From a virus: a stretch of DNA of 44,284 bases. The translations under genes and the position numbers were made by a program. This document shows, piece after piece, positions 17,225 to 44,284 of the stretch; position 1 is the stretch's first letter, and each line of letters starts with the position of its first letter. The notes under the pieces were generated by a model. That model had not been told where the DNA came from and ran no database searches. It saw only the letters and a list, made by a program, of their open reading frames with translations. The stretch spans positions 1 through 44,284 of the IMG/VR virus record IMGVR_UViG_3300036715_000723. One strand, written 5' to 3'.

Positions 17225-18316
17225 ATGACAGTCCAAGAAATGCATATTGGGATAGACCAGATTTTACAAAAAGTAAATTCTAAACAAACTGATAGTTTTA
17301 AATACCAAGAAAAAGATTGGGCTTTAAATGAAGAATGTTTAAGATTTATAAAACAAAGAACTAACCCTTTAAGTAATTCTAAACATCAAGGTCTTGAAAG
17401 CACTCAAAAAAGGTATGACGATGTAGCTGAGTTAATAACCTCAGCTACATTATCAACCTATTATAGAGATACTAATTCTGTATTTGGTTTTTTACCAGTA
17501 GATTATTTCAGTTTAATAAATGATAGGAGTTTTGTAAAAGATTTATGTGGTAATAATATTAATACTATTACAACAATTACAGAAACTAAAAAAGTTTGTG
17601 TGGTACCTTTTCCAGATGCTACTGAAACTTCAAGTCCTTATTATACTAATTTAAGTTTTATTAAAACTGATGATAATACTATTTTATTTGATATAAATAA
17701 TTATATTACAACTATAAATGGATTAAATAGTAAAGAAGAAAAATTTTATATTATTAATCTTGCATTAGAGGTAATGAATAAATTGTATCCTTTATATGAT
17801 GAATATGGAAAACAAAATTCTTTTGGTATTGAAGTTAAATGGGAAAATTTTAATGGTACATATTATAAAAACTCTTTTATATTTATAGTAACAAATTTAC
17901 CATTATTTACAGGGGTAACAATTCAACCCAATAATACAGTATGTACAAGTGTTGATACATTATTTAAAAAATATAATTTATTAAATACTAATGAAGTTCC
18001 AAATAGATTATGTAAAACAGAAGATTTATATACTTTAATGGGAACTAATTTTGCTACTACTTTTTCTCATAGTCCTATAAGTTCTTTATCAAGAGGTAAA
18101 ATAAATGTACATCATAAACAAAAGTTTATATTAAATTTTGTATCTATTGATTATATTAGGAAACCAAGAAAAATAGACCTAATTTTAAATCAAAGTTGTG
18201 AATTAAATCCTAATGTACATGAGGAAATAGTAGAAAATACTGCTAAAAGACTTGTTGGAATAACTAAAGGTGAAAATTATCAACAAATAATGAATGAAAC
18301 CTTATTAACAGAATAA
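17225..18316 (+). CDS. Conserved virion protein (363 aa)
   Basis: A 363-residue protein starting MTVQEMHIGIDQILQKVNS, an N-terminus I associate with a structural protein family of crAss-like phages. Residues 20-90 are helical and polar; 100-330 beta-rich with YYRDTNSVFGFLPVDYF and several Thr-rich strands; the end is helical. Four residues separate it from the gene before and 20 bases from the gene after. It is probably a head or portal-vertex component, but the exact place in the virion is not known from sequence. No enzymatic motif. Confidence 0.6.
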   Translation: MTVQEMHIGIDQILQKVNSKQTDSFKYQEKDWALNEECLRFIKQRTNPLSNSKHQGLESTQKRYDDVAELITSATLSTYYRDTNSVFGFLPVDYFSLINDRSFVKDLCGNNINTITTITETKKVCVVPFPDATETSSPYYTNLSFIKTDDNTILFDINNYITTINGLNSKEEKFYIINLALEVMNKLYPLYDEYGKQNSFGIEVKWENFNGTYYKNSFIFIVTNLPLFTGVTIQPNNTVCTSVDTLFKKYNLLNTNEVPNRLCKTEDLYTLMGTNFATTFSHSPISSLSRGKINVHHKQKFILNFVSIDYIRKPRKIDLILNQSCELNPNVHEEIVENTAKRLVGITKGENYQQIMNETLLTE

Positions 18317-18336
18317 TAACTTAAAAATAAAATAAA

Positions 18337-19320
18337 ATGAACAGTATAGTAATTGCAAAAGATAGTTTAGCTTATGCCGCAAAAATAGGTGGTAGTACTA
18401 TCGCAGGTATTAATGAAATTAATCTATTAGCTGATGGAGCAATAGCAGTTTTTACAAATAAAAGTGAACTTGTAACAGCAACTAACGTTACAACTATTTT
18501 AGCTGATAAAAAAGGTATTTTTATTGCAGTAGGTAGTGGGGATGCTACAAAAGGTGCTTATGTAACAACAAATATCAAACGTTTTGGTGCAGAGTATAAA
18601 AAACGTGCTTATCAAGCTCCACAAAAAGAATTGAAATTTATTGGATATGATGGAGCTACTGGTGCTTTAAATCTTCCTACTTTAATTGCTGGAGCAGAAG
18701 CATTTTTAAAATTAATTGATACTTCTAAAGGTTTAAGAACTATAGAAGCAGTCTATGAAAATGAAATTAAATCTTATTCTTATGTTTTAAAAACAGGAGA
18801 TACAGATACAATTATTATTACTAATTTAGTAAATCAAATTAATAATGATAATACAAGTTTTGTTGTTGCTGCTGTTGTAGGTACTACTCCAAATTTAGGT
18901 ATTAGTATTACTCCAAAATTATTTGGTGCTACTATTGCTATTTCTTTAGATGGTATTTTAATTAATGCAACTAAAGAAGTTGGTGGTGTAAGTAACTCTT
19001 TACCAGTAATTTACGGTGAGGGTAGTGATGCACAGGTATTAGCATTAGAAGATTTATTCTCTCCTAATCGTGGTAATACAAATAAAGTTTATCAACCTCA
19101 ATTTTGGTATTCAGTTCCATCTATGGTTGTATCTGGTAAAACTTATGATATGTATAACTTAAAATGGACTGGTGAACTTAATAGAGCAGTAGGTTCTCAA
19201 CTTACAACAAATCAACAAGTTATAGTAGCTTTACCAGTTGGTGTTACAGCACAAACAACTTTTGAAACTATTATGGCACGAGTATTTGGTAATGAGATGG
19301 AATTTGAAACTGGTTTATAA
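18337..19320 (+). CDS. Virion protein, possible capsid decoration protein
   Basis: A 327-residue, Ala/Gly/Thr-rich, mainly beta protein with better codon adaptation than its neighbours (MNSIVIAKDSLAYAAKIGG; ADKKGIFIAVGSGDATKG; NTNKVYQPQFWYSVPSM). It has no cysteine, signal or membrane segment. Composition and codon use suggest a protein made in many copies, such as a capsid decoration or an abundant tail protein. The upstream gap (AACTTAAAAATAAAATAAA) shows the typical A-rich start. Which virion part it builds cannot be told without a structural comparison. Confidence 0.6.
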   Translation: MNSIVIAKDSLAYAAKIGGSTIAGINEINLLADGAIAVFTNKSELVTATNVTTILADKKGIFIAVGSGDATKGAYVTTNIKRFGAEYKKRAYQAPQKELKFIGYDGATGALNLPTLIAGAEAFLKLIDTSKGLRTIEAVYENEIKSYSYVLKTGDTDTIIITNLVNQINNDNTSFVVAAVVGTTPNLGISITPKLFGATIAISLDGILINATKEVGGVSNSLPVIYGEGSDAQVLALEDLFSPNRGNTNKVYQPQFWYSVPSMVVSGKTYDMYNLKWTGELNRAVGSQLTTNQQVIVALPVGVTAQTTFETIMARVFGNEMEFETGL

Positions 19321-20948: not shown

Positions 20949-21539
20949 ATGTTAAGTACTTATAAAAGTCCTACGGACTTAGAAAATAATATAAATAATA
21001 CATTTAAACTTTACAAAAAAAGTATTGTAAGTAATTTCTTATCAGAAGTAAATGAAGAGCAATTAAAAGGTGAAAGTACTATTCAATATTCTAATTTTAA
21101 TATATATTTAGCAATATATTTAGTAACATTAGTTTTTTTAGAAGTAAAAAAATACCCAACAAAATCTTGGGATTATTTTGTAACTAAATATAAACTACAT
21201 AAATTAAAGGAGTGTCTTTCTTGTAAAGGAATAAAACTTGAAGATATATTAACCCAATTCCAATTACCTATGATTACAGGGGAAGGGATTGATTTTTTAG
21301 AAATTGAAAACACATTACAAATAGAACCTGGTGATTTAACACCTATTATACCTATAATAAATCAAATTAATATATTAACTTTAATAAATAATTCAAATTG
21401 TACTATAAATATAACTAAATGTCAAGAAATAAGAGTAGATAATGGAGGTAGAATATTATCAATAATTGGTAAAGTAACAACATTTAATGCTGATTATACT
21501 GGAAATTTATTTGATACAGCTTATAAATATGATTCTTAA
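20949..21539 (+). CDS. Virion-associated protein, unknown function (196 aa)
   Basis: A 196-residue protein: helical N-terminal half (NNINNTFKLYKKSIVSNFLS; LATYLVTLVF-like YLAIYLVTLVFLEVKKY) with ECLSCKG at about residue 85-91, and a beta-rich C-terminal half (ILTLINNSNCTINITKCQEI; GGRILSIIGKVTTFNADYTG). The CLSC pair may share a site with the cysteine-rich protein encoded just upstream, 2 bases away, so the two may interact. The hydrophobic stretch is too irregular to call a membrane helix. Function unknown. Confidence 0.6.
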   Translation: MLSTYKSPTDLENNINNTFKLYKKSIVSNFLSEVNEEQLKGESTIQYSNFNIYLAIYLVTLVFLEVKKYPTKSWDYFVTKYKLHKLKECLSCKGIKLEDILTQFQLPMITGEGIDFLEIENTLQIEPGDLTPIIPIINQINILTLINNSNCTINITKCQEIRVDNGGRILSIIGKVTTFNADYTGNLFDTAYKYDS

Positions 21540-21648: not shown

Positions 21649-21942
21649 ATGGATAGTCAATTATTAATGCAAATAATACAGGAACTACAATTAAGTGGTA
21701 CTCCTCCTTATGCAATACATTCTGATATATCAAATAGTGTAGTATATATTATATATAAAATACAAAATAAAGATACTTATTTAGGTTTTCCAGTTTTAAA
21801 AATAACAAGTATTAATGGAGGTAGTTATACTTCAGATGTAATAACTAAAGGTTTTTTAACTGAGACTGGATTATTTGATATTACATTATTTAATAGTAAT
21901 TTAATTACAGCATTAAATTCTGTAACTTTTACACAATTTTAA
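21649..21942 (+). CDS. Small fibre-region protein (97 aa)
   Basis: A 97-residue protein: short N-terminal helix (MDSQLLMQIIQELQL), then beta-rich sequence with a TLFNSNLITALNSVTFTQF end. Its stop codon touches the start of the next fibre gene without any gap, so translation is coupled. Size, fold type and position suggest a small fibre, chaperone or adaptor belonging to the fibre that follows. No known motif. Confidence 0.55.
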   Translation: MDSQLLMQIIQELQLSGTPPYAIHSDISNSVVYIIYKIQNKDTYLGFPVLKITSINGGSYTSDVITKGFLTETGLFDITLFNSNLITALNSVTFTQF

Positions 21943-22935
21943 ATGAAAGTTTTTTTTGATCCTATATTAAATAAATTAAGAAGAGATGATTATTCTCAAG
22001 CAGTGGCATATTTTAATTCTTTAGGAATTTATGCTGTTACAACTGTTGCTAATTACTCTGCATTACCTAATGTTAGTGCTGTTGCTGGTCATACTTATAT
22101 AGTGTTATCAAGTCAAGGTACTGCATGGTTACCTGGTGCTTGGGGTGGAACTTATTATCCTGATGGTTTTTATTATTCTGATGGTAGTTCTTGGTATTAT
22201 ACTAAAACTCCTTATCAAGCTACACAAACTACTGTAAATATTGGTACTGATAATAGTCAATTTATTACTTCTTTAACATTAACAAATGCTAATGTTATAA
22301 CTAATAAAGAATTAACTTCTAATAAAAGTATAACAACTGCTGATTCAGCAAGTAATATTAAGTTTCCAGTATGGAGTGCAGTTGTAAGTTATGTAACTGG
22401 ATTAGGTTATTTATTAGCAAGTACTGCTTCAAGCACTTACCAAACAATAATAACTTATACATCTTGGGGGACTTTTCTTCACGCTTCTACAAATAAAATA
22501 AATCCAATAGATGCTGATGAAATTGGGATTTGGGATAGTGTAAGTGGATTATTAAATAAAGTTTCATTAATTAATTTAAAAACATATTTAGTAGGTTACT
22601 TTACATCGTATCAAATAATAACAATTACAAGTAACGCTACACCAACTATTGCTACAGGTACTTTTCGTGAAACATTTGTAGCAATTACTGCATTAGCAAC
22701 TGCCATAACTTCATTCACTACTAATTTAAGCGGTACTCCTGCTAATGGAGCACGTATGACTATTAGAATAAAAGACAATGGTACAGCAAGAGCATTAACA
22801 TTTGGATCTTCATTTGAAGCATGTGGGGCTTCTTTACCTACAACCACTACAATAAGCAAAAGAACTACTATAGGTTTTGTATATGATACTACAACATCTA
22901 AATGGGGCTGTGTTGCCTCAGTAACCGAAGCATAA
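21943..22935 (+). CDS. Tail or head fibre protein
   Basis: A 330-residue fibre. The N-terminus FFDPILNKLRRDD matches the FDPxLxKLRxxD-type start common to fibres of phages of Bacteroidota, which probably anchors the fibre to the virion. Then come AYFNSLGIYAVTTVANYSAL and a Gly/Tyr/Trp-rich segment (AWGGTYYPDGFYYSDGSSWY), a triple-fibre-like middle, and a C-terminal beta domain with GARMTIRIKDNGTARALTFG and TTIGFVYDTTTSKWGCVAS, known from many phage tail fibres. It likely contacts the host surface. It is directly coupled to the 97-residue gene. Confidence 0.8.
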   Translation: MKVFFDPILNKLRRDDYSQAVAYFNSLGIYAVTTVANYSALPNVSAVAGHTYIVLSSQGTAWLPGAWGGTYYPDGFYYSDGSSWYYTKTPYQATQTTVNIGTDNSQFITSLTLTNANVITNKELTSNKSITTADSASNIKFPVWSAVVSYVTGLGYLLASTASSTYQTIITYTSWGTFLHASTNKINPIDADEIGIWDSVSGLLNKVSLINLKTYLVGYFTSYQIITITSNATPTIATGTFRETFVAITALATAITSFTTNLSGTPANGARMTIRIKDNGTARALTFGSSFEACGASLPTTTTISKRTTIGFVYDTTTSKWGCVASVTEA

Positions 22936-22956: not shown

Positions 22957-23190
22957 ATGGGATTTATCACAGATTTAGAATTAGAAAAAAACAAAAAATT
23001 AGCAGCACAACAAGTTAAAGACTGGTCTGATAGTGCTATTAACGCATTAAATCAAGTACAAAATTATAAGCAATCATTAGTTGCTCAATTGGAATTAATG
23101 AAAGTTAATACAGTTGATTATACGGAAGTTGATTGTAATGAAGCTCAGGCTTTAATTGATACTATTAATTCAAAACTAACATCTATTTAA
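22957..23190 (+). CDS. Helical fibre-region protein, in frame with the next gene
   Basis: A 77-residue helical, coiled-coil-like protein (MGFITDLELEKNKKLAAQQV; ALNQVQNYKQSLVAQLELM) ending in TSI and a TAA stop. The following glycine-rich protein is in the same frame and its first possible start codon, TTG, comes directly after this TAA. So the two could be the N-terminal anchor and the adhesive part of one fibre split by a stop, or separate coupled genes. Sequence alone cannot decide; the preceding A-rich leader supports this start. Confidence 0.6.
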   Translation: MGFITDLELEKNKKLAAQQVKDWSDSAINALNQVQNYKQSLVAQLELMKVNTVDYTEVDCNEAQALIDTINSKLTSI

Positions 23191-23976
23191 TTGTCAGTAA
23201 ACGTATCATATTTAATTGTAGCTGGTGGTGGTGGCGGTGGTGGAGATGGCGGTAATTGGGGTGGCGGTGGCGGTGCTGGTGGTTTACTAACTGGCACTTC
23301 TATACTTTCAATAGGATCATATAGTATAGTTGTTGGAAATGGCGGAGTACATGGATTACAAGGCGGTAACGGTTCAAATTCATCATTTAATGGATTAACT
23401 GCTATTGGAGGTGGTGGAGGAGGGCATTATAATGGTTCCGCAGGTAGTTCAGGTGGTTCAGGTGGTGGTGGTGGAAATGCTTCTGGCGGATCTGGAACTT
23501 CCGGGCAAGGTAATACTGGTGGTTCATCAATGGGAGGTGGCGGTGGAGCTGGAGCTGTAGGAACTAATGGCAATAATGGTGGTGGCACAAGAGGAAATGG
23601 TGGGGCTGGTTTATCTTCTGCTATAAATGGTACTTCTAATTTTTATGCCGCAGGCGGTGGAGGTGGTGGGTCTGGAGGTATCGCTAATTCAGCAGGTTCA
23701 GGTGGTAGCAGTATAGGTGGAAATGGTAGTGATACTGTAGCAGCTACAAGTCCAATTGCAAATACGGGTAGCGGAGGAGGAGGTGCTAATACTTATGGTA
23801 GTAATGGTACAAATGGTGCAAATGGCGTAGTAATCTTATCTTATACAACGGGCGTAATGACTGCAACTGGCGGAACAATAACAACAAGTGGAGGCAATAC
23901 AATTCACACATTTTTAAGTTCAGGAACTTTTACGGTAACTGATTTACCAAGTGGAAATATGTTTTTAGTTTTTTAA
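23191..23976 (+). CDS. Glycine-rich adhesin-like fibre protein
   Basis: A 261-residue protein read from TTG at 23191, directly after the TAA of the preceding gene; no ATG or GTG start gives the whole domain. It starts SVNVSYLIVAGGGGGGG and continues with dense Gly runs, typical of the glycine-rich domain family found in phage fibres and adhesins such as Gp38-type tips, where Gly strands form polyglycine II layers. The end carries GGNTIHTFLSSGTFTV, also usual for the family. GC content is far above the neighbours because of GGN codons. It is probably the host-binding tip, and a candidate for recent exchange. Confidence 0.75.
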   Translation: MSVNVSYLIVAGGGGGGGDGGNWGGGGGAGGLLTGTSILSIGSYSIVVGNGGVHGLQGGNGSNSSFNGLTAIGGGGGGHYNGSAGSSGGSGGGGGNASGGSGTSGQGNTGGSSMGGGGGAGAVGTNGNNGGGTRGNGGAGLSSAINGTSNFYAAGGGGGGSGGIANSAGSGGSSIGGNGSDTVAATSPIANTGSGGGGANTYGSNGTNGANGVVILSYTTGVMTATGGTITTSGGNTIHTFLSSGTFTVTDLPSGNMFLVF

Positions 23977-23987
23977 TAAATATAAAT

Positions 23988-24290
23988 ATGGAAACAACAA
24001 TAGAAATAGTAAAAGAACCTTGGTATAAAACATTAGTTTTTTATCCGTTTAGAGTAATAACTTCTTTATTAAGTGCTTTATCTATGGATGAGAGTGGATT
24101 TTCACTTAAAAAAATATTAGCTACTGCTGGTACTACAACAGGAATTTGGATAACAAAAGAACACTCTTGTAAAGAAAATGCTATTGCATATTTAATTATA
24201 TGGTTAGTCTGGGTTGGTATTTTAGTAGGTATTTACTCTTTAAAAGATATTTCTAATGCTTTTACATCATATAAAACTGGAAAAATCTGA
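23988..24290 (+). CDS. Small membrane protein, holin-like
   Basis: A 100-residue protein with a hydrophobic stretch around residues 17-30 (LVFYPFRVITSLLSALS) and a strong membrane helix at 64-85 (AIAYLIIWLVWVGILVGIYS), plus FSLKKILATAGTTTGIW in between. The form GFSxKKxxA..... with a C-terminal double hydrophobic segment is usual in putative holins of Bacteroidota phages. Holins make the lysis pore. It lies among the fibres, 11 bases after the glycine-rich gene, ends in TGA and is followed by a hairpin. Role inferred from form only. Confidence 0.55.
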   Translation: METTIEIVKEPWYKTLVFYPFRVITSLLSALSMDESGFSLKKILATAGTTTGIWITKEHSCKENAIAYLIIWLVWVGILVGIYSLKDISNAFTSYKTGKI

Positions 24291-24365: not shown

Positions 24366-25379
24366 ATGGCAATTATAAAAGAATTTAGAGAGTTTTTTCT
24401 AAGACACGTACAAGTATCAAGTGGAGCTAAACCTGACCAAGAAGTAGGATTCAATTTACAATATTTTATAGGGGGTATAGGACAAAAATTTAACCGTTTT
24501 TTAAAAGGTGATTTTCCAAATGAAAATGTATTTAAAAAACTATTTCAGAGTATTACTTTTAAATTAAATGTAGAAGATACTGCTGATAATGTTAATCAAG
24601 GATTAGTTAGAATCGCTACTGATACAGAAGCAGAAGCAAGAACTGATAATAGTACTGGAACATTTACAAATGTAGTTCAACCTCATCAATTACCTAATTT
24701 AGTACTTCATGCTGATAGTGATGATGTAGTAGTTGGCTCACCTATAATTTTAAATGGTCTTATTTTATTTGCTTTAAAAAGAACTATTGGTGGTAAATTT
24801 TGGAGAAATTTTAAAATTGCTATAAATTATGATAAAAGTATTGTTATAGGTACAGGAGATACATTAGAATTAGATGGAGATGATTCTACTCCTGGTAATA
24901 ATAAAGTATATGGTACAAATAATATAGGAATAAAAGGGTGGTATGATATTATGCCAAGTGGTAGTATTATAATGTTTAATAGTATTACTGCACCAGTAGG
25001 TTGGAATGTATGTGATGGTAGTAATGGTACTCCTGATTTAAGAGGTAAGTTTATTGTATCTACTGGACAAAATAGTACACCTGCCTCTGGAGACTTAAAT
25101 CCTACTTATGCTTTAAATGATACTGGAGGTGAAAATACACATCAATTAAATGTTAATGAATTACCTCAACACAGTCATGGAAATTTAAATATACCAAGAA
25201 GTCTTACAAATGGTAGTTCATATACTGTTGTAAATGGTGCAGGAACAAGTGGAGCATTTCCTGTTTCTTTACCATTACCTGCTACTGTTTTTGATGGTGC
25301 TGGAGGTACTGAAAGTACTTATAGTAGGCATGAAAATAGACCAACATTTTATGCTTTAACTTATATAATGAAATTATAA
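24366..25379 (+). CDS. Fibre with phage tail collar domain
   Basis: A 337-residue fibre. The N-terminal half has FNRFLKGDFP, a TDTEAEARTDN region usual in fibre shafts, and beta strands. From about residue 196 it holds a tail collar domain: PSGSIIMFNSITAPVGWNVC, GTPDLRGKFIVSTGQ, GGENTHQLNVNELPQHSHGN and the C-terminal RHENRPTFYALTYIMKL. In T4-type long tail fibres the HxH-type loops of this domain can bind metal; HSHG here fits that. It is likely a receptor-contacting or collar fibre. The start is preceded by TTAAATAAAATCTA. Confidence 0.85.
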   Translation: MAIIKEFREFFLRHVQVSSGAKPDQEVGFNLQYFIGGIGQKFNRFLKGDFPNENVFKKLFQSITFKLNVEDTADNVNQGLVRIATDTEAEARTDNSTGTFTNVVQPHQLPNLVLHADSDDVVVGSPIILNGLILFALKRTIGGKFWRNFKIAINYDKSIVIGTGDTLELDGDDSTPGNNKVYGTNNIGIKGWYDIMPSGSIIMFNSITAPVGWNVCDGSNGTPDLRGKFIVSTGQNSTPASGDLNPTYALNDTGGENTHQLNVNELPQHSHGNLNIPRSLTNGSSYTVVNGAGTSGAFPVSLPLPATVFDGAGGTESTYSRHENRPTFYALTYIMKL

Positions 25380-37033: not shown

Positions 37034-40000
37034 ATGGCAAAGGGAAATGAACCAAAAGTAAAATCAAATATAGTACCTTTAGAAAATCTTATTAATAAAG
37101 ATAAAGACATTTTTACAGGGATAGCACCATCTACAATAGATAGAGAAAAAACAGGTATTAAAGACTCTGATTATGAAGATTATGGTATTCTTAGAAAAAA
37201 TACTGATATAAATAAAATTAGAGCTGATAATCAATCAGGTTGGGAACAAGCTGGTTCATTTTTAACTCGTTCAGCAGGGGAAATTGTTGGTGGAACTATT
37301 GGTGCAATTGGTGCAACATTAGAATTACCTGTTGCAATTAGTACTGAAATTAGTGGAGGTAATGCAGATTTTGAAAATTTTTTAACCAAATTTGGAGATT
37401 CAATTTCTGAAAAAAGTAATGAAATTGCTCCTATATATAGAGAACACCCAGGAAAATCATTTGATATTTCTGATAGTGGTTGGTGGGCTGAAAAAGGTGT
37501 TAGTGTAGCTTCAACATTATCTTTAATGTTTCCTGCTATTGGAGCTGTTAAAGGTTTATCTTTTTTAGGTAAAGTTGCAAGAGAAAGTCAAGTATTAGGA
37601 AAAGTTATGAAAGGGTTAGATACAATGTCTGATTTAAAGTATTTCTCTAAAATTGCTGTCTCTGCTGCTGTTTCTCGTAATGCTGAAAATTTTAAAGAAA
37701 GTTTTCAAGTAGTTAATGAAACTAAAAATAATTTATTAAAAGAATGGAATGAAAATCCAGATAAATTTAATGAAGTTTTAAATACTGATGTTGTAAAAGA
37801 ATTACAACAAGAAGGTAAACAAGCTACAAAAGAAAATGTAGCTGATTTTGTTGCCTCAAAAGCTGGTTGGCTTTCCTATGGTGTGAATAGTTTAAACATT
37901 GCATTTGATTTAGTTCAATTTGCTCCTTTATTTAAAGGATATAAACCTAAATTACAATTATCTAAAGGAGCAGAATCTTTAGATGTATTAAAAGCACAAG
38001 CATCAGCAATTGGAAAATCATTAACTAAATCAGATTATATAGCACATTTTTTAAGACCTACTGGAATTATTGTAGGAGAACAATTAAGTGAAGGTGTAGA
38101 AGAGGCTATTAATTATATAGGTACAGAAGAAGGTAAAAATTATGCAAATGAATTAGTTGGAAAAGACACTAAAAATTTATCAAATCGTTTATTAGATTAT
38201 GTAAAAGATGATAAAATGTGGGAAAGTGCTGCTTGGGGTGTAATGGGAGGTATTGCTTTTAGTGGATTATCTAATACTTTAGGTAATATTAAACAAAAAA
38301 TGCAAAATAAAGATGGTAATACATTAAAAAATTTAAGATTAGAAGAAATTTCTAATAGAATTAATAATATTCAAAATGTTTCTAATGAATTAAAAAAAAT
38401 TCAAGATGATGAAACATTATCAGATGAACAAAAAAAAGAAAATATAAATAAAATTAAATTTACAAATTCTATAAATAGTGGATTAAATGCTATTCAAGTA
38501 GGTAATTTTGATATGTATTTAGAACATTTAGGTTCTGCTAATATGCGAAAAGCCATGATTGATAATGGTTATGCTACTGAAGAAGATGTTGATAAAGCTA
38601 TTACATATTCTATAAATGATGTTAATACTGCTGCTGAATTATATAAAAAAAATTATAGTTTATTACAAACTAAGAATATTGATAATAATATTAAAAATCA
38701 TCAAATAATTTCAAAAAGTTATTGGGAAGCTCAAACAAAAAATGAAATAGAAAAATTAAATAATTTAAAAAAAGATGTTGAATTATTAAAAAATGATGAC
38801 ATTAATTACACAGATTTAGGTGTAAATAATATAAGTAGTGCTACAAAATTAGTAGCATTAAAAAAATTAGAAGAAATATATAAAGGAGTAGAACAAGCCT
38901 CATTAGATAATGAAGGTGCTTCTGCTATTAGTCAATATCAAAAAGTAATATTAGATAGGGTTTCTAATGAAGTAAAAGAGTTAGAAAAAATAGAAAATTT
39001 ACCATTAGATAAAGTAAATCCTGAAATTGCAATTAAACAATTTCATATAGAACATAAAAAAGCTACTATTGAGGCATATAACTATAAAACTAAATTTATG
39101 GGTACAGATGCATATACTAAAATTTTAGAAAAACAAACAGAAATAGAATTAAAAAACAGAGAAGATAAAAAAACTAATAATTTTAAAAATAAAATTGAAG
39201 AAGAAATTAAAAATGGTTCACATACTAAAGAATCTTTAAATTCTCTAAAAGATGAAATTAAAAATAAAGAAGAAAAAGATTTTTTAACTACTAAAATTAA
39301 AGATTTAGAAAATAATACTTCTGAAAATAATACAAAAGAAGAAATAAAGTCTGTTAAAGAATCTAAAAACCCTGTACAAGAAAATAATACAATTGAGGGT
39401 ATTGCAAATAAGATTATAAATAGAAAAGAAGGAGAGAATTTTAGTCCAGAAGAAGAACAATTTTATACTAATAATAAAGAACAAATTGAAAACCATATAA
39501 AAGAAAAAGCAAGTACTAAAAATCCTGTACAAGATAATAAAAATAATGAAAAAGCTAAACCAGAACATTTAGTTTTTGGTGTTTTTGATAAAGAATTTAA
39601 AAATCATACTATTGATGAAACTAAATTAAATAATCAAAAAAAAGAGGAAATTGATTCTTATTTACAGGGAGAAAATATTGGAGGATTATTAAATTTACAT
39701 TCTAAATTAAAAGGTACTTTAGAAGGTAATTACTTAGAAAATAAAATTACTGAATTAAAAGAAAAATTACAAAATGAATTTGATAATAAATTAGAAATTG
39801 CAGAACAAAATTCTAAAAAACAATTTACTGATGATACACAAATTAATGAGCAAGCTCAATGGGAATTAGATAATATAAATAAACCTAAAATAAATCAAAA
39901 TGCTGGATTAATGTTTAAAGAAATTGATAGTAAATCAGAAAATTCTGAAATTGCTACAATTAAACCTTTATTACATATTTTAAGACCTTTAGGATTTAAT

Positions 40001-43000
40001 GGAGAAATTCAATATTCAACAGATGAAAATAATAATTTAATTGTATCAAAAGAAATTGAAGATGCAGTTAAAGAATTATATAATTCTAAAATTGGAGATG
40101 AAATTGAAATTAAAATAGATTCTGAAAATGCTTATTATGAGAAAAATAAAGAAAATAGTAAAGATATACCTTTAGTTATTATTAAAAATGGTAAAAAAAT
40201 AGCTTATATATCTTCAACTTCTCAATTTAATTATAATGTTGAAAATAATGTAATTAAAAATGGTGAAGAAGAAAGTAATTTATTAAATAATATTAGAACT
40301 GAAATTGGTACAGATTTAAAAAAATCTGTAAAAATGACAATAAATACAACTCAAAAAGGTGATGTTATAAATACTAAAAATTATTATAACATTCAAGAAG
40401 TAGGATTAAATAATTTTAAATTTTGGTCTTTACCTACTGGAACAAGCAGTAAAAATACATTAGTTTCTTTAGATAAAGAAGAAAAAGAATATATTAGTAA
40501 TACTACTGAATATGGAAGATTTACTGATAATAATGGTAATATTCATTTTAAAAAAGGTTTAGTTTATTTAGAATTACAAAATGTAGATGGTAGTTTTTTT
40601 CCAACTCCTTTAAAAATAAATAAAATTAATGAAAAAGAAGCTAAAAAAATACAAGATTTAACTTTTAAATTATTAAAATTATTAAATGAAGGAGTAAATA
40701 CAACGGATGAAAAAATAATTAATTTAAAAGATGAATTAAAAAAATATATTAGAGTAGATGATACAAGAGATGCTAAAACTGATACAGATTATATAAAATC
40801 ATTAAGAGAAGAAAAATTTCAATTATCTAAAAAAGAACAAACTGAAGAAATATTAAATAAAATTAAATCTAAACAAGAAGAGATTGATAACTATTCAAAT
40901 AATAGAAATATAAGTTTTAGAATGCACCCAAAAACTGAAACTAAACCTGCAAGAATAGAAATTGGTTATTTATCTCCATCAACAGGAGAAAAAAGATTAA
41001 TTATAGTGAGAGAAACAGGTTTACAATTTATTGACAATAAAGGAAAAGTATTTGGTAATAATGTTTCAAGAAATATTGAAACTGGTAATATTGGTACTTT
41101 TATATTTAATGGAGTACAAGAAAATAATCCTTTATTAACTGCTTTACAATTTAAGTATCATAATATAGATTTTAAATCTCTTAAAAATAATGAAAATTAT
41201 AAAAAAGAACTTATAGAAAATGGAGTTTTTCAAACTAATGTAGGACAATTAAAAACTACAAAAGGGGAATTTATTTCTAATTTTACAAATTTTGCTATTA
41301 GAATAAGTAAAAAAACAGATTTAAAAGTTGAAAATAAACAAGAAAATACAGAAGAAAATAAACAAGAAAATAAACAAGAAACAGATAATCAAGGGTTTGA
41401 TGAATTATTTGAAAGTTTTAATAAAATTATTGAATCAGAAGTTAAAGAAGAATTAAAAAATAGTGATAGTGAAACTATTTTAAAAACTATTTTAGATAAT
41501 CCTCAAAGTCAAGATATAAAATTATCAGCAGAATCTATAAAAAATACTATAAAAAATAATAATATAAAAATTGAATTTGTAGATTCTCTACCTGATAATT
41601 ATACAGGTTCTTATATTATTAAAAATAATAAAATATTAATTAATAAAGATTATAAAAATTTAAAAGAATTACAAGAAACTTTATTACATGAAATTTATCA
41701 TAGTTTAACTATTCTCCCTGTAATAAAGTATATGAGTTTTGCTGTATTACCTGATGGTACATTAAACTACAATTCCTATGAATTTAAACCTAATACACCA
41801 CAAGAAATAAAAGATTTTATAAAACAAATAGAAAATCTTAGAGAATTTGCAGAAAAGAAAATAAAACAAAAATATCCTGATATTACTAAAGCTAAATTAA
41901 ATTTAAAATATGGTATAAAAAATAATTTTGAATTTATTTCAGAAGTTATGTCAAATCCTGAATTTAAAGAGGTTTTAAAAGACGGTGATATTAATATTAT
42001 AGAAAAAATAATTGATGCAATTTTAAATTTTTTAAATAATTATTTTAAATCTAATTTTAATACTTATAAAAATAAAAATTATGAAAATTCTGTTAAAGCT
42101 ATTTTAAATCTTATTAATACAAGAAATAAAATAGATTATTCAGAATTAAAAGGAGATATTCAATATACTTTAAATTCTCAATTTGCTTCATTTAATAAAG
42201 AAAAAGATAAAGTTTTTTCTAATGAAGAACTTGGAAATATTGTAAATTATGCATTTTATGAAACAAGTAAAATTTTAAAAAATAAAGCAGATAATAAATT
42301 TAATGAAAATTCAAAAGATGATGTTTTAGTAAAAACACAAGTTTTAGAAAATTTAAAAAATATTTTTATAAAGTTTGATAATAAATTTACAGATGAACAA
42401 AAAGAATTATCTAATAGAGTAATTAATAATTTTGATACTGTATGGAAAGCTATATCAAGAAAAATAAGTTCTGTTTATAATGTTAGTGAAGAAAATGATA
42501 ATTTAGAAATAGATTTAAACCAACAAACAGAATTAGCTGAAAATTGGGATAAAAAAGTTACAGACTCTTTAAATTTAAATAGCAAATTAAGTAAAGAAAT
42601 TAAATGGTTTTTATCATCTTTTCCATCTTATACAGAAAATAAATTAAATATTAATGCTGTTACAGGTTTACCAGTAATTATAGATTATGCTGATATAATT
42701 ATACCAATAAGAAAAAACTTATCTGGAGTACAATCAAGTTTTGAAATTATTAAAAACTTAAGAAATTTAGTAGAATTAGATGTTGTTTATGGTAAAATTG
42801 CTGATAAATTAGAAACTAATCTTAATTTATTAAATGGATTTGAATCTATATTCAAATCAGCTGAAACTAAACAAGTTGCTATACTTTTAACTCCAACAAA
42901 TGAAGGAGTTAAATTAGTAAGAGCAGATGAGATGAATAGTGCAAAAGATTATAAAAAATTTAAAGAAGAATGGCAATTATTAATAGATAATAATATTGAA

Positions 43001-44284
43001 GCAACAATTTTACAAAATAAAATAAATACATTAAAATCTAATAATAAAATTGATAAAGAATTAGAATTAAAATTAGAGAAATTATTAGAACAAGGAGCAA
43101 AAATTTATGATAATAAATTTTTAGAAGAAAAATTAAAAATAGATAAATTATTAATACCTTTTAAAAATAATAAAGAATCTGAAAATTACTTAAATAATGA
43201 AAATGGTATAACAGATAAAGGTAAAGAATTAGTTGAAATTTTTTCAAAACAATTAAATTTAATTGGTTTAGATATTAGTTTAGAAACTATTAAAACAGAT
43301 ATTAAAAATGCTCGAATATTAAGTGATACATTATTATCTGCTATTGATGGTTTATTTATATCTATTGATAAACAAAATAAAAAAAATGATACAGGAAATT
43401 TAGAAAAAATTGCTAAAATTGAAACTAAATTTAATTTTAAATATGCAGAATTACAAAGTAAAACAGTAACAGGAGAAACTATTAATAATTTTGAATTACC
43501 AAGTTTTTTATCAAATATTCTAACAAAATGGAAATCTGACGATTCTACTGTAAAAGAAGAGGTTGAAAGAGAATTAAGAGAATGGGCTGAAAATGGGGAA
43601 GATATACAATATGATAAAATGATGTGGAAAACAGAATCTTTTGATGGTTTATGGGAATATGAAGAACAAAATGGAAGAAAAATACCTACTAAATTAAATA
43701 GAGAGTTTTTAAAAAACTATATTAATGTTTTTCAAGAAGGTGGTGGAAAAAATACTATTACAAAAGATGCAGAATCTAATATAGATTTAACTCCAAATGA
43801 TTATTTAATTACTAATTTAGCGAATTATTTAATGTATGATTCTAAAAATAATAGTAATAATAAATTATTTAGTATGCCTTCATTAACTCCTTCAGATAGT
43901 CCTAAACAAACTTGTATTACTTTATTAAAAACAATATTAAAAAAAGACGATTTTTCTATAATTAAAGATGATAATGGTAATTTTATAAAAATTGAAATAA
44001 AAAGAACTTCTGAATGTTATAAAAGTATTGGGCAATTAATAAAACAAGAAGTTGTTAGAAGAAAACAAGCATTTGATTATATATTTGATGAAGTATTATC
44101 AGATAATAATATTATTAATAAAGAAAATAAAACAATAAAAGAAAAAGATAAATTAGTAATATATCCTAAATATTTTAATTATAATACAAATAAACTAACA
44201 AAAGAAGGTAAAATTTGGTTTAAAAGTTTAGAAAAATATTATCATTATGGGCAAATTAATTATTTAAAAGATGAAAAAGGTAAT
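37034..44284 (+). CDS. Giant virion polyprotein with metallopeptidase domain, cut by the window end
   Basis: An open frame of 2417 codons to the right edge, without stop; start 4 bases after the preceding gene. N-terminal 430 residues carry hydrophobic, possibly membrane-active stretches (GEIVGGTIGAIGATLELPVA; SVASTLSLMFPAIGAVKGL; AAWGVMGGIAFSGLS). Then come long helical regions. LLHEIYHSL (HEIYH, 1552-1556) with NNFEFISEVMSNPEF (Glu1633, Glu1637) forms the site of a zinc metallopeptidase as known in phage polyvalent proteins. From about 1850, SKLSKEIKWFLSSFPS and later FSMPSLTPSDSPK and IGQLIKQEVVRRK resemble segments next to virion RNA polymerases of crAss-like phages. The polymerase core, if present, lies beyond the window. 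Confidence 0.8.
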   Translation, partial: MAKGNEPKVKSNIVPLENLINKDKDIFTGIAPSTIDREKTGIKDSDYEDYGILRKNTDINKIRADNQSGWEQAGSFLTRSAGEIVGGTIGAIGATLELPVAISTEISGGNADFENFLTKFGDSISEKSNEIAPIYREHPGKSFDISDSGWWAEKGVSVASTLSLMFPAIGAVKGLSFLGKVARESQVLGKVMKGLDTMSDLKYFSKIAVSAAVSRNAENFKESFQVVNETKNNLLKEWNENPDKFNEVLNTDVVKELQQEGKQATKENVADFVASKAGWLSYGVNSLNIAFDLVQFAPLFKGYKPKLQLSKGAESLDVLKAQASAIGKSLTKSDYIAHFLRPTGIIVGEQLSEGVEEAINYIGTEEGKNYANELVGKDTKNLSNRLLDYVKDDKMWESAAWGVMGGIAFSGLSNTLGNIKQKMQNKDGNTLKNLRLEEISNRINNIQNVSNELKKIQDDETLSDEQKKENINKIKFTNSINSGLNAIQVGNFDMYLEHLGSANMRKAMIDNGYATEEDVDKAITYSINDVNTAAELYKKNYSLLQTKNIDNNIKNHQIISKSYWEAQTKNEIEKLNNLKKDVELLKNDDINYTDLGVNNISSATKLVALKKLEEIYKGVEQASLDNEGASAISQYQKVILDRVSNEVKELEKIENLPLDKVNPEIAIKQFHIEHKKATIEAYNYKTKFMGTDAYTKILEKQTEIELKNREDKKTNNFKNKIEEEIKNGSHTKESLNSLKDEIKNKEEKDFLTTKIKDLENNTSENNTKEEIKSVKESKNPVQENNTIEGIANKIINRKEGENFSPEEEQFYTNNKEQIENHIKEKASTKNPVQDNKNNEKAKPEHLVFGVFDKEFKNHTIDETKLNNQKKEEIDSYLQGENIGGLLNLHSKLKGTLEGNYLENKITELKEKLQNEFDNKLEIAEQNSKKQFTDDTQINEQAQWELDNINKPKINQNAGLMFKEIDSKSENSEIATIKPLLHILRPLGFNGEIQYSTDENNNLIVSKEIEDAVKELYNSKIGDEIEIKIDSENAYYEKNKENSKDIPLVIIKNGKKIAYISSTSQFNYNVENNVIKNGEEESNLLNNIRTEIGTDLKKSVKMTINTTQKGDVINTKNYYNIQEVGLNNFKFWSLPTGTSSKNTLVSLDKEEKEYISNTTEYGRFTDNNGNIHFKKGLVYLELQNVDGSFFPTPLKINKINEKEAKKIQDLTFKLLKLLNEGVNTTDEKIINLKDELKKYIRVDDTRDAKTDTDYIKSLREEKFQLSKKEQTEEILNKIKSKQEEIDNYSNNRNISFRMHPKTETKPARIEIGYLSPSTGEKRLIIVRETGLQFIDNKGKVFGNNVSRNIETGNIGTFIFNGVQENNPLLTALQFKYHNIDFKSLKNNENYKKELIENGVFQTNVGQLKTTKGEFISNFTNFAIRISKKTDLKVENKQENTEENKQENKQETDNQGFDELFESFNKIIESEVKEELKNSDSETILKTILDNPQSQDIKLSAESIKNTIKNNNIKIEFVDSLPDNYTGSYIIKNNKILINKDYKNLKELQETLLHEIYHSLTILPVIKYMSFAVLPDGTLNYNSYEFKPNTPQEIKDFIKQIENLREFAEKKIKQKYPDITKAKLNLKYGIKNNFEFISEVMSNPEFKEVLKDGDINIIEKIIDAILNFLNNYFKSNFNTYKNKNYENSVKAILNLINTRNKIDYSELKGDIQYTLNSQFASFNKEKDKVFSNEELGNIVNYAFYETSKILKNKADNKFNENSKDDVLVKTQVLENLKNIFIKFDNKFTDEQKELSNRVINNFDTVWKAISRKISSVYNVSEENDNLEIDLNQQTELAENWDKKVTDSLNLNSKLSKEIKWFLSSFPSYTENKLNINAVTGLPVIIDYADIIIPIRKNLSGVQSSFEIIKNLRNLVELDVVYGKIADKLETNLNLLNGFESIFKSAETKQVAILLTPTNEGVKLVRADEMNSAKDYKKFKEEWQLLIDNNIEATILQNKINTLKSNNKIDKELELKLEKLLEQGAKIYDNKFLEEKLKIDKLLIPFKNNKESENYLNNENGITDKGKELVEIFSKQLNLIGLDISLETIKTDIKNARILSDTLLSAIDGLFISIDKQNKKNDTGNLEKIAKIETKFNFKYAELQSKTVTGETINNFELPSFLSNILTKWKSDDSTVKEEVERELREWAENGEDIQYDKMMWKTESFDGLWEYEEQNGRKIPTKLNREFLKNYINVFQEGGGKNTITKDAESNIDLTPNDYLITNLANYLMYDSKNNSNNKLFSMPSLTPSDSPKQTCITLLKTILKKDDFSIIKDDNGNFIKIEIKRTSECYKSIGQLIKQEVVRRKQAFDYIFDEVLSDNNIINKENKTIKEKDKLVIYPKYFNYNTNKLTKEGKIWFKSLEKYYHYGQINYLKDEKGN

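Follow-up and report, generated by a model that had tools for sequence, protein, structure and literature searches.

An in-frame TAA/TTG junction between a two-helix protein and a glycine-rich, adhesin-like protein in an environmental crAss-like phage

The contig and its variable fibre slot

The window analysed here, 44,284 bases with a G+C content of 26%, is the virus contig of IMG/VR record IMGVR_UViG_3300036715_000723. Two open reading frames abut on its plus strand. ORF1 (22957-23190) begins with ATG at 22957, specifies 77 amino acids and terminates in TAA at 23188-23190; ORF2 (23191-23976) has the adjoining TTG (23191-23193) as its sole possible ordinary start codon, specifies 261 amino acids from there and ends in TAA at 23974-23976. 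The ORF1 stop is in frame with ORF2, and the preliminary description of a shared frame parted only by TAA and then TTG is borne out by the sequence and its translation. Read as a single chain the two would comprise 338 residues, or 339 if the stop position holds a residue, and would run ...INSKLTSI-x-LSVNVSYLIVAGGG across the stop. Codon statistics in the shared frame gave +0.40 bits per codon for ORF1 and +0.59 for ORF2, whereas values in the remaining two frames lay between -1.9 and -2.1; both ORFs are clearly coding, in the shared frame only, and ORF1 has abundant stop codons in its +1 and +2 frames. A frameshift joining the two was ruled out, since they already lie in the same frame and a single shift cannot connect them.

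Profile matches revealed the terminase (phrog_6681), portal (phrog_6547) and capsid (phrog_11589) genes in crAss-type order, and the window thus carries the homologous major capsid, portal and terminase genes in the conserved order that define the Crassvirales. Its capsid protein is 38% identical to those of Intestiviridae members and 66-71% identical to those of environmental contigs L064-L068. The nearest syntenic relative is L066/L067/L068, counted as one lineage of which dereplication retained one, with a major capsid protein 66% identical to that of the window. The capsid protein encoded by a 4.7-kb contig from another metagenome (L005, IMGVR_UViG_3300035182_000187) is 100% identical, so that this phage or a very near relative occurs in a second sample. 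An open reading frame of more than 2,400 codons (37034-44284) runs off the contig end, in the region where crAss-like phages have giant virion proteins, so that the contig is a fragment.

Under table 11 no large gene of the window is interrupted, the long 3' genes and those for capsid, portal and terminase among them, and 27 of the 30 plus-strand genes that end inside the window terminate in TAA. On these two grounds an altered genetic code was ruled out; no structural gene was found to hold the open internal stop codon by which altered-code crAss-like phages are recognised, and a search of the window for tRNA genes found none. The window is an AT-rich fragment of an uncultured, environmental crAss-like phage that uses the standard code.

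Upstream of ORF1 lies a gene for a tail-type protein (21943-22935, plus strand; phrog_3030, E-value=3e-17). Over its C-terminal 100 residues this protein shares 50% identity with a tail protein of Methylophilaceae phage P19250A and 41% with mycobacteriophage proteins; the segment is probably an exchangeable fibre module. Downstream of ORF2 is a gene for a 100 amino acid protein with hydrophobic segments (23988-24290, plus strand), which matched no fibre chaperone family in Pfam or PHROGs. It is followed by a gene for a tail collar-type protein (24366-25379, plus strand) with similarity to phrog_8469 (E-value=4.5e-18) and to Pfam Collar (E-value=2.6e-4, under the gathering cut-off).

The collar-type gene has homologs in contigs L066, L083 and L095 and forms the right-hand conserved edge of a slot which, between the conserved genes at 20949 and 24366 of the window, holds different genes in relatives. 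In L066 it contains a 582 amino acid fibre protein and a 143 amino acid protein, in L083 enzyme-like genes, and in L095 almost nothing. The L083 genes (17226-18506 and 18615-19202) resemble, by sequence alone, a glycosyltransferase and a methyltransferase and stand there instead of fibres. The slot is a variable fibre cassette, the ORF1-ORF2 version of which was seen nowhere else; no relatives of the pair were found in the collections searched. The syntenic slots of L066, L083 and L095 neither support nor refute the existence of two genes at the locus.

A glycine-rich head and a two-helix protein

ORF2 belongs to the Gly_rich_2 family (PF21722; E-value=1.8e-19, 71.1 bits against a curated cut-off of 24.3) and also matches phrog_2295 (E-value=4.4e-37). 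An AlphaFold model of the protein from the TTG, built on 35 sequences, shows a complete domain (pLDDT 93.8, pTM 0.91), the first strand of which occupies residues 3-10; the first ten residues have a pLDDT of 96. According to the model, the ORF1 stop falls at a domain boundary and leaves ORF2 with a complete fold. Towards the C-terminus ORF2 contains the motif TATGGTITTSGGNTIHTF-SSGTFTVT (window 23857-23943). In many relatives this motif precedes the glycine-rich part, a difference reminiscent of circular permutation or of excision of the domain from a tandem array.

The best fold relatives of ORF2 among solved structures are a glycine-rich tail-tip protein of mycobacteriophage Bxb1 (PDB accession number 9d93; Z=13.3 over 167 residues, 35% identity) and the tail fibre gp24 of Pseudanabaena phage Pam3 (7ypx, 7yfw; VIA-align Z=12.4-12.8 over 159-161 residues). 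Both share the head fold, and gp24 also supplied the only PDB sequence matches of the ORF2 head profile (E-value=8e-4). In the solved, trimeric structure of Pam3 gp24, a long and a short helix attach the fibre to the baseplate, and the glycine-rich domain has been put forward as the part that binds the receptor (PMC9608196). The two heads differ in that ORF2 has extra C-terminal strands and gp24 carries about 25 residues of strand-like sequence ahead of the glycine-rich motif. By this likeness ORF2 is most likely the receptor-binding tip of a short fibre, a predicted role.

ORF1 was predicted from its single sequence to form a long helix (residues 6-51) and a short helix (residues 60-76) with a pLDDT of 83. 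With the glycine-rich fold of ORF2, this agrees with the helical first half and glycine-rich tip half of the preliminary description. No relatives of ORF1 were found in viral contigs, genome contigs, phages, Pfam, PHROGs or PDB sequences; a fold search gave nothing above chance level in the viral library and yielded no PDB chain for comparison. Since gp24 likewise carries a long and a short helix before its head, ORF1 occupies the position where gp24 keeps its helical anchor and is possibly an anchor or partner of ORF2. In sequence the two show no similarity, for 966 of 1000 shuffles scored as high against the gp24 N-terminus, and the likeness seen in the predicted structure is one of layout only.

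What sets ORF2 apart is its N-terminus. Among 58 relatives drawn from viral and genome contigs, all 58 have at least 20 residues (median 59.5) ahead of the YLIVAGGG motif, an empirical trait of these relatives that lies outside the definition of the Gly_rich_2 family; ORF2 has about six and so is without a mount of its own. Similar total lengths (for instance 263 amino acids) occur among proteins of the viral structure library. The nearest head relatives, in L001 and L010, begin with Met-Ser, as ORF2 would, and continue with about 20 residues that ORF2 does not have, which is weak evidence compatible with the loss of a mount. In the Bxb1 chain the match begins at residue 59, so that, unlike ORF2, this protein keeps an N-terminal part of its own in one chain.

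The missing mount fits either a fibre split into two chains or a chain that was formerly single. In the latter case the TAA at 23188-23190 would be a nonsense mutation of recent origin, or else an error of consensus or assembly, in a fibre gene whose intact form had the helical anchor and glycine-rich head of Pam3 gp24. The N-terminal stretch common to the 58 relatives would then be accounted for, ORF1 has the helical layout described for the gp24 anchor (PMC9608196), and residue 1 of ORF2 aligns with residue 95 of gp24, where ORF1 and the stop position together give 78. Approximately 31% of the codons of this phage are also one change away from TAA. Against a broken gene stand the position of the stop at a domain joint, the shuffle result for ORF1 and the gp24 N-terminus, and several features of the junction itself that are described below. 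Pam3 gp24 is one uninterrupted chain of 280 residues, whereas here TAA parts the helical portion from the head.

The TAA/TTG junction

Between the ORF1 stop and the YLIVAGGG motif, the first conserved motif of ORF2, TTG 23191 is the only ATG, GTG or TTG; if ORF2 is a protein in its own right it therefore starts there. The other 30 plus-strand genes of the window all start with ATG, and it counts against two genes that this would be the sole non-ATG start among 31. A gap of zero was found at 2 of 30 neighbouring plus-strand gene pairs, both in the operon of ORF1 and ORF2. Among 11,467 interior codons of the phage 18 are TTG (0.16%, or 1.9% of leucine codons), and start-competent codons make up 1.6% of all codons; that such a codon directly follows the stop speaks against a broken gene. 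The rarity of TTG was at one point taken as decisive for a start. That argument was dropped: a zero gap and a TTG start are each uncommon for the real genes of this phage, the two combined are about as improbable if there are two genes as a TTG codon is if one gene is broken, and TTG by itself cannot separate the hypotheses.

The AT-rich stretch upstream of the TTG (23171-23190) lies inside ORF1, and its bases -20 to -4, a span that excludes the stop, have a score that falls among those of the 30 ATG starts and exceeds that of 92% of in-frame coding positions, with a density ratio of about 3.3 in favour of a start. Such a start-like context is a further point against a broken gene. Base -3 is T; 20 of the 30 starts have A at this position, and in this respect the site argues against a second gene. 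Flavobacterium starts are without Shine-Dalgarno sites and depend on the bases that precede them, an A at -3 among these (PMC6847099).

Junctions of the same type occur where no fibre is involved, again in conflict with a broken gene. In the same operon, a plus-strand gene for a 97 amino acid protein (21649-21942) ends in TAA and the ATG of the tail-type protein gene (21943-22935) follows directly in the same frame; this pair served as an internal control. In L066, L067 and L068 the gene for the large subunit of the terminase begins with a TTG that adjoins the in-frame TAA of an 87 amino acid open reading frame (3884-4147 in L066, with the terminase gene from 4148), and this TTG is its sole possible start. 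As at the ORF1-ORF2 junction, the gap is zero and a small open reading frame lies upstream; the downstream gene is here a terminase, not a fibre. An error is unlikely, since the terminase is essential and the arrangement is present in three assemblies. The terminase genes of L092 (TAA then ATG) and L083 (TAG then ATG) also have a zero gap.

Termination-reinitiation operates at overlaps and very short distances and drops steeply as the distance grows (PMC10666635). Like the pairs described there, ORF1 and ORF2 are co-directed with adjoining stop and start codons, and as a co-directed pair at near-zero distance they have the arrangement of a translationally coupled pair. They differ in having a distance of 0 with TTG, where the commonest distances are -4 and -1 (PMC10666635).

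The preliminary description had offered two accounts of the junction besides a recent mutation, namely a direct restart at TTG and read-through of the stop as a control of tip display. The restart is the supported option, with an exact precedent at the L066 terminase and a TAA/ATG neighbour in the operon; read-through as a control found no support. By that account most ribosomes would release ORF1 and a few would make a 339-residue fusion of anchor and tip, thereby setting the number of tip-bearing fibres. The two reading frames are indeed adjacent and in frame, and the domain order is correct for a fibre. The ORF1 stop is nevertheless TAA, the normal terminator of the phage, RNA folding around it showed no more structure than shuffled sequences have (z +0.5 to +1.2) and no stimulatory element, no tRNA gene was found in the window, the code is standard, and ORF2 has its own start and a fold that is complete from the TTG. 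A pattern search of the viral collection returned no variants of the junction with any codon at the stop position, and the joined chain gave only chance matches to glycine linkers in the PDB. We regard programmed read-through as extremely improbable.

Taken together, ORF1 and ORF2 are most likely two abutting genes, with TTG 23191 as the true start codon of the second. The balance is tipped by the precedents, the upstream context, the position of the stop at a domain boundary and the small prior probability of a broken gene. Weighing on the other side, next to the start codon, base -3 and the mount, is the absence of comparative proof, searches for relatives of ORF1 and of the pair having found none. 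A broken gene is a minor but real contender, judged unlikely. The junction most likely reflects the close packing of genes that is ordinary in phages, and not a regulated stop within one fibre.

Translation and assembly of the pair

If two genes are present, TTG 23191 is a real but weak start and the pair is probably translationally coupled. Ribosomes that finish ORF1 would re-initiate at the adjoining TTG, aided by the unstructured AT-rich stretch, in keeping with the independence of Bacteroidetes from Shine-Dalgarno sites, and the output of the adhesin would in this way be coupled to that of ORF1. ORF2 would fold alone and form the tip of a short fibre, with its place in the virion and its binding of a receptor suggested by its fold relatives. 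ORF1 may act as a helical mount to which ORF2 attaches non-covalently.

A split, two-chain fibre of this kind is plausible, since ORF2 is without the usual residues ahead of its motif and the two-helix ORF1 sits at the position of the mount. A separate glycine-rich receptor-binding tip protein that attaches to its fibre is known in gp38 of Salmonella phage S16 (6F45; PMC9608196), a comparison made through the literature alone, and the absence of 6F45 from the fold-search matches is uninformative on relatedness. Gp38 attaches to gp37 by N-terminal helices of its own, which ORF2 does not possess. In Pam3 a fibre chaperone gene follows gp24, whereas the gene after ORF2 matches no chaperone family.

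Given two genes, the chances that ORF1 is the mount of ORF2 are roughly even. The two may instead be unrelated neighbours, ORF1 an independent small protein and ORF2 carried on another fibre or on the collar protein, and to this, again given two genes, we assign slightly less than an even chance. A slot so variable in relatives does not require a partnership, and ORF1 has no relatives tying it to fibres. A partnership is favoured by the missing mount of ORF2 and by the zero gap, which suggests coupled output of the sort that is common for subunits of one complex (PMC10666635). It is also conceivable, though very doubtful, that a split fibre has a switch of stoichiometry, in which re-initiation at TTG would yield free tips and occasional read-through of TAA covalent anchor-tip chains, their ratio setting the display of tips.

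Since this phage group has in-frame TAA/TTG junctions at more than one place, including the essential terminase gene, such pairs should not be taken for nonsense mutations or recoding without further evidence. ORF2 is put forward as a likely receptor-binding protein of this environmental crAss-like phage, and the fibre, one chain in Pam3, may here consist of two.
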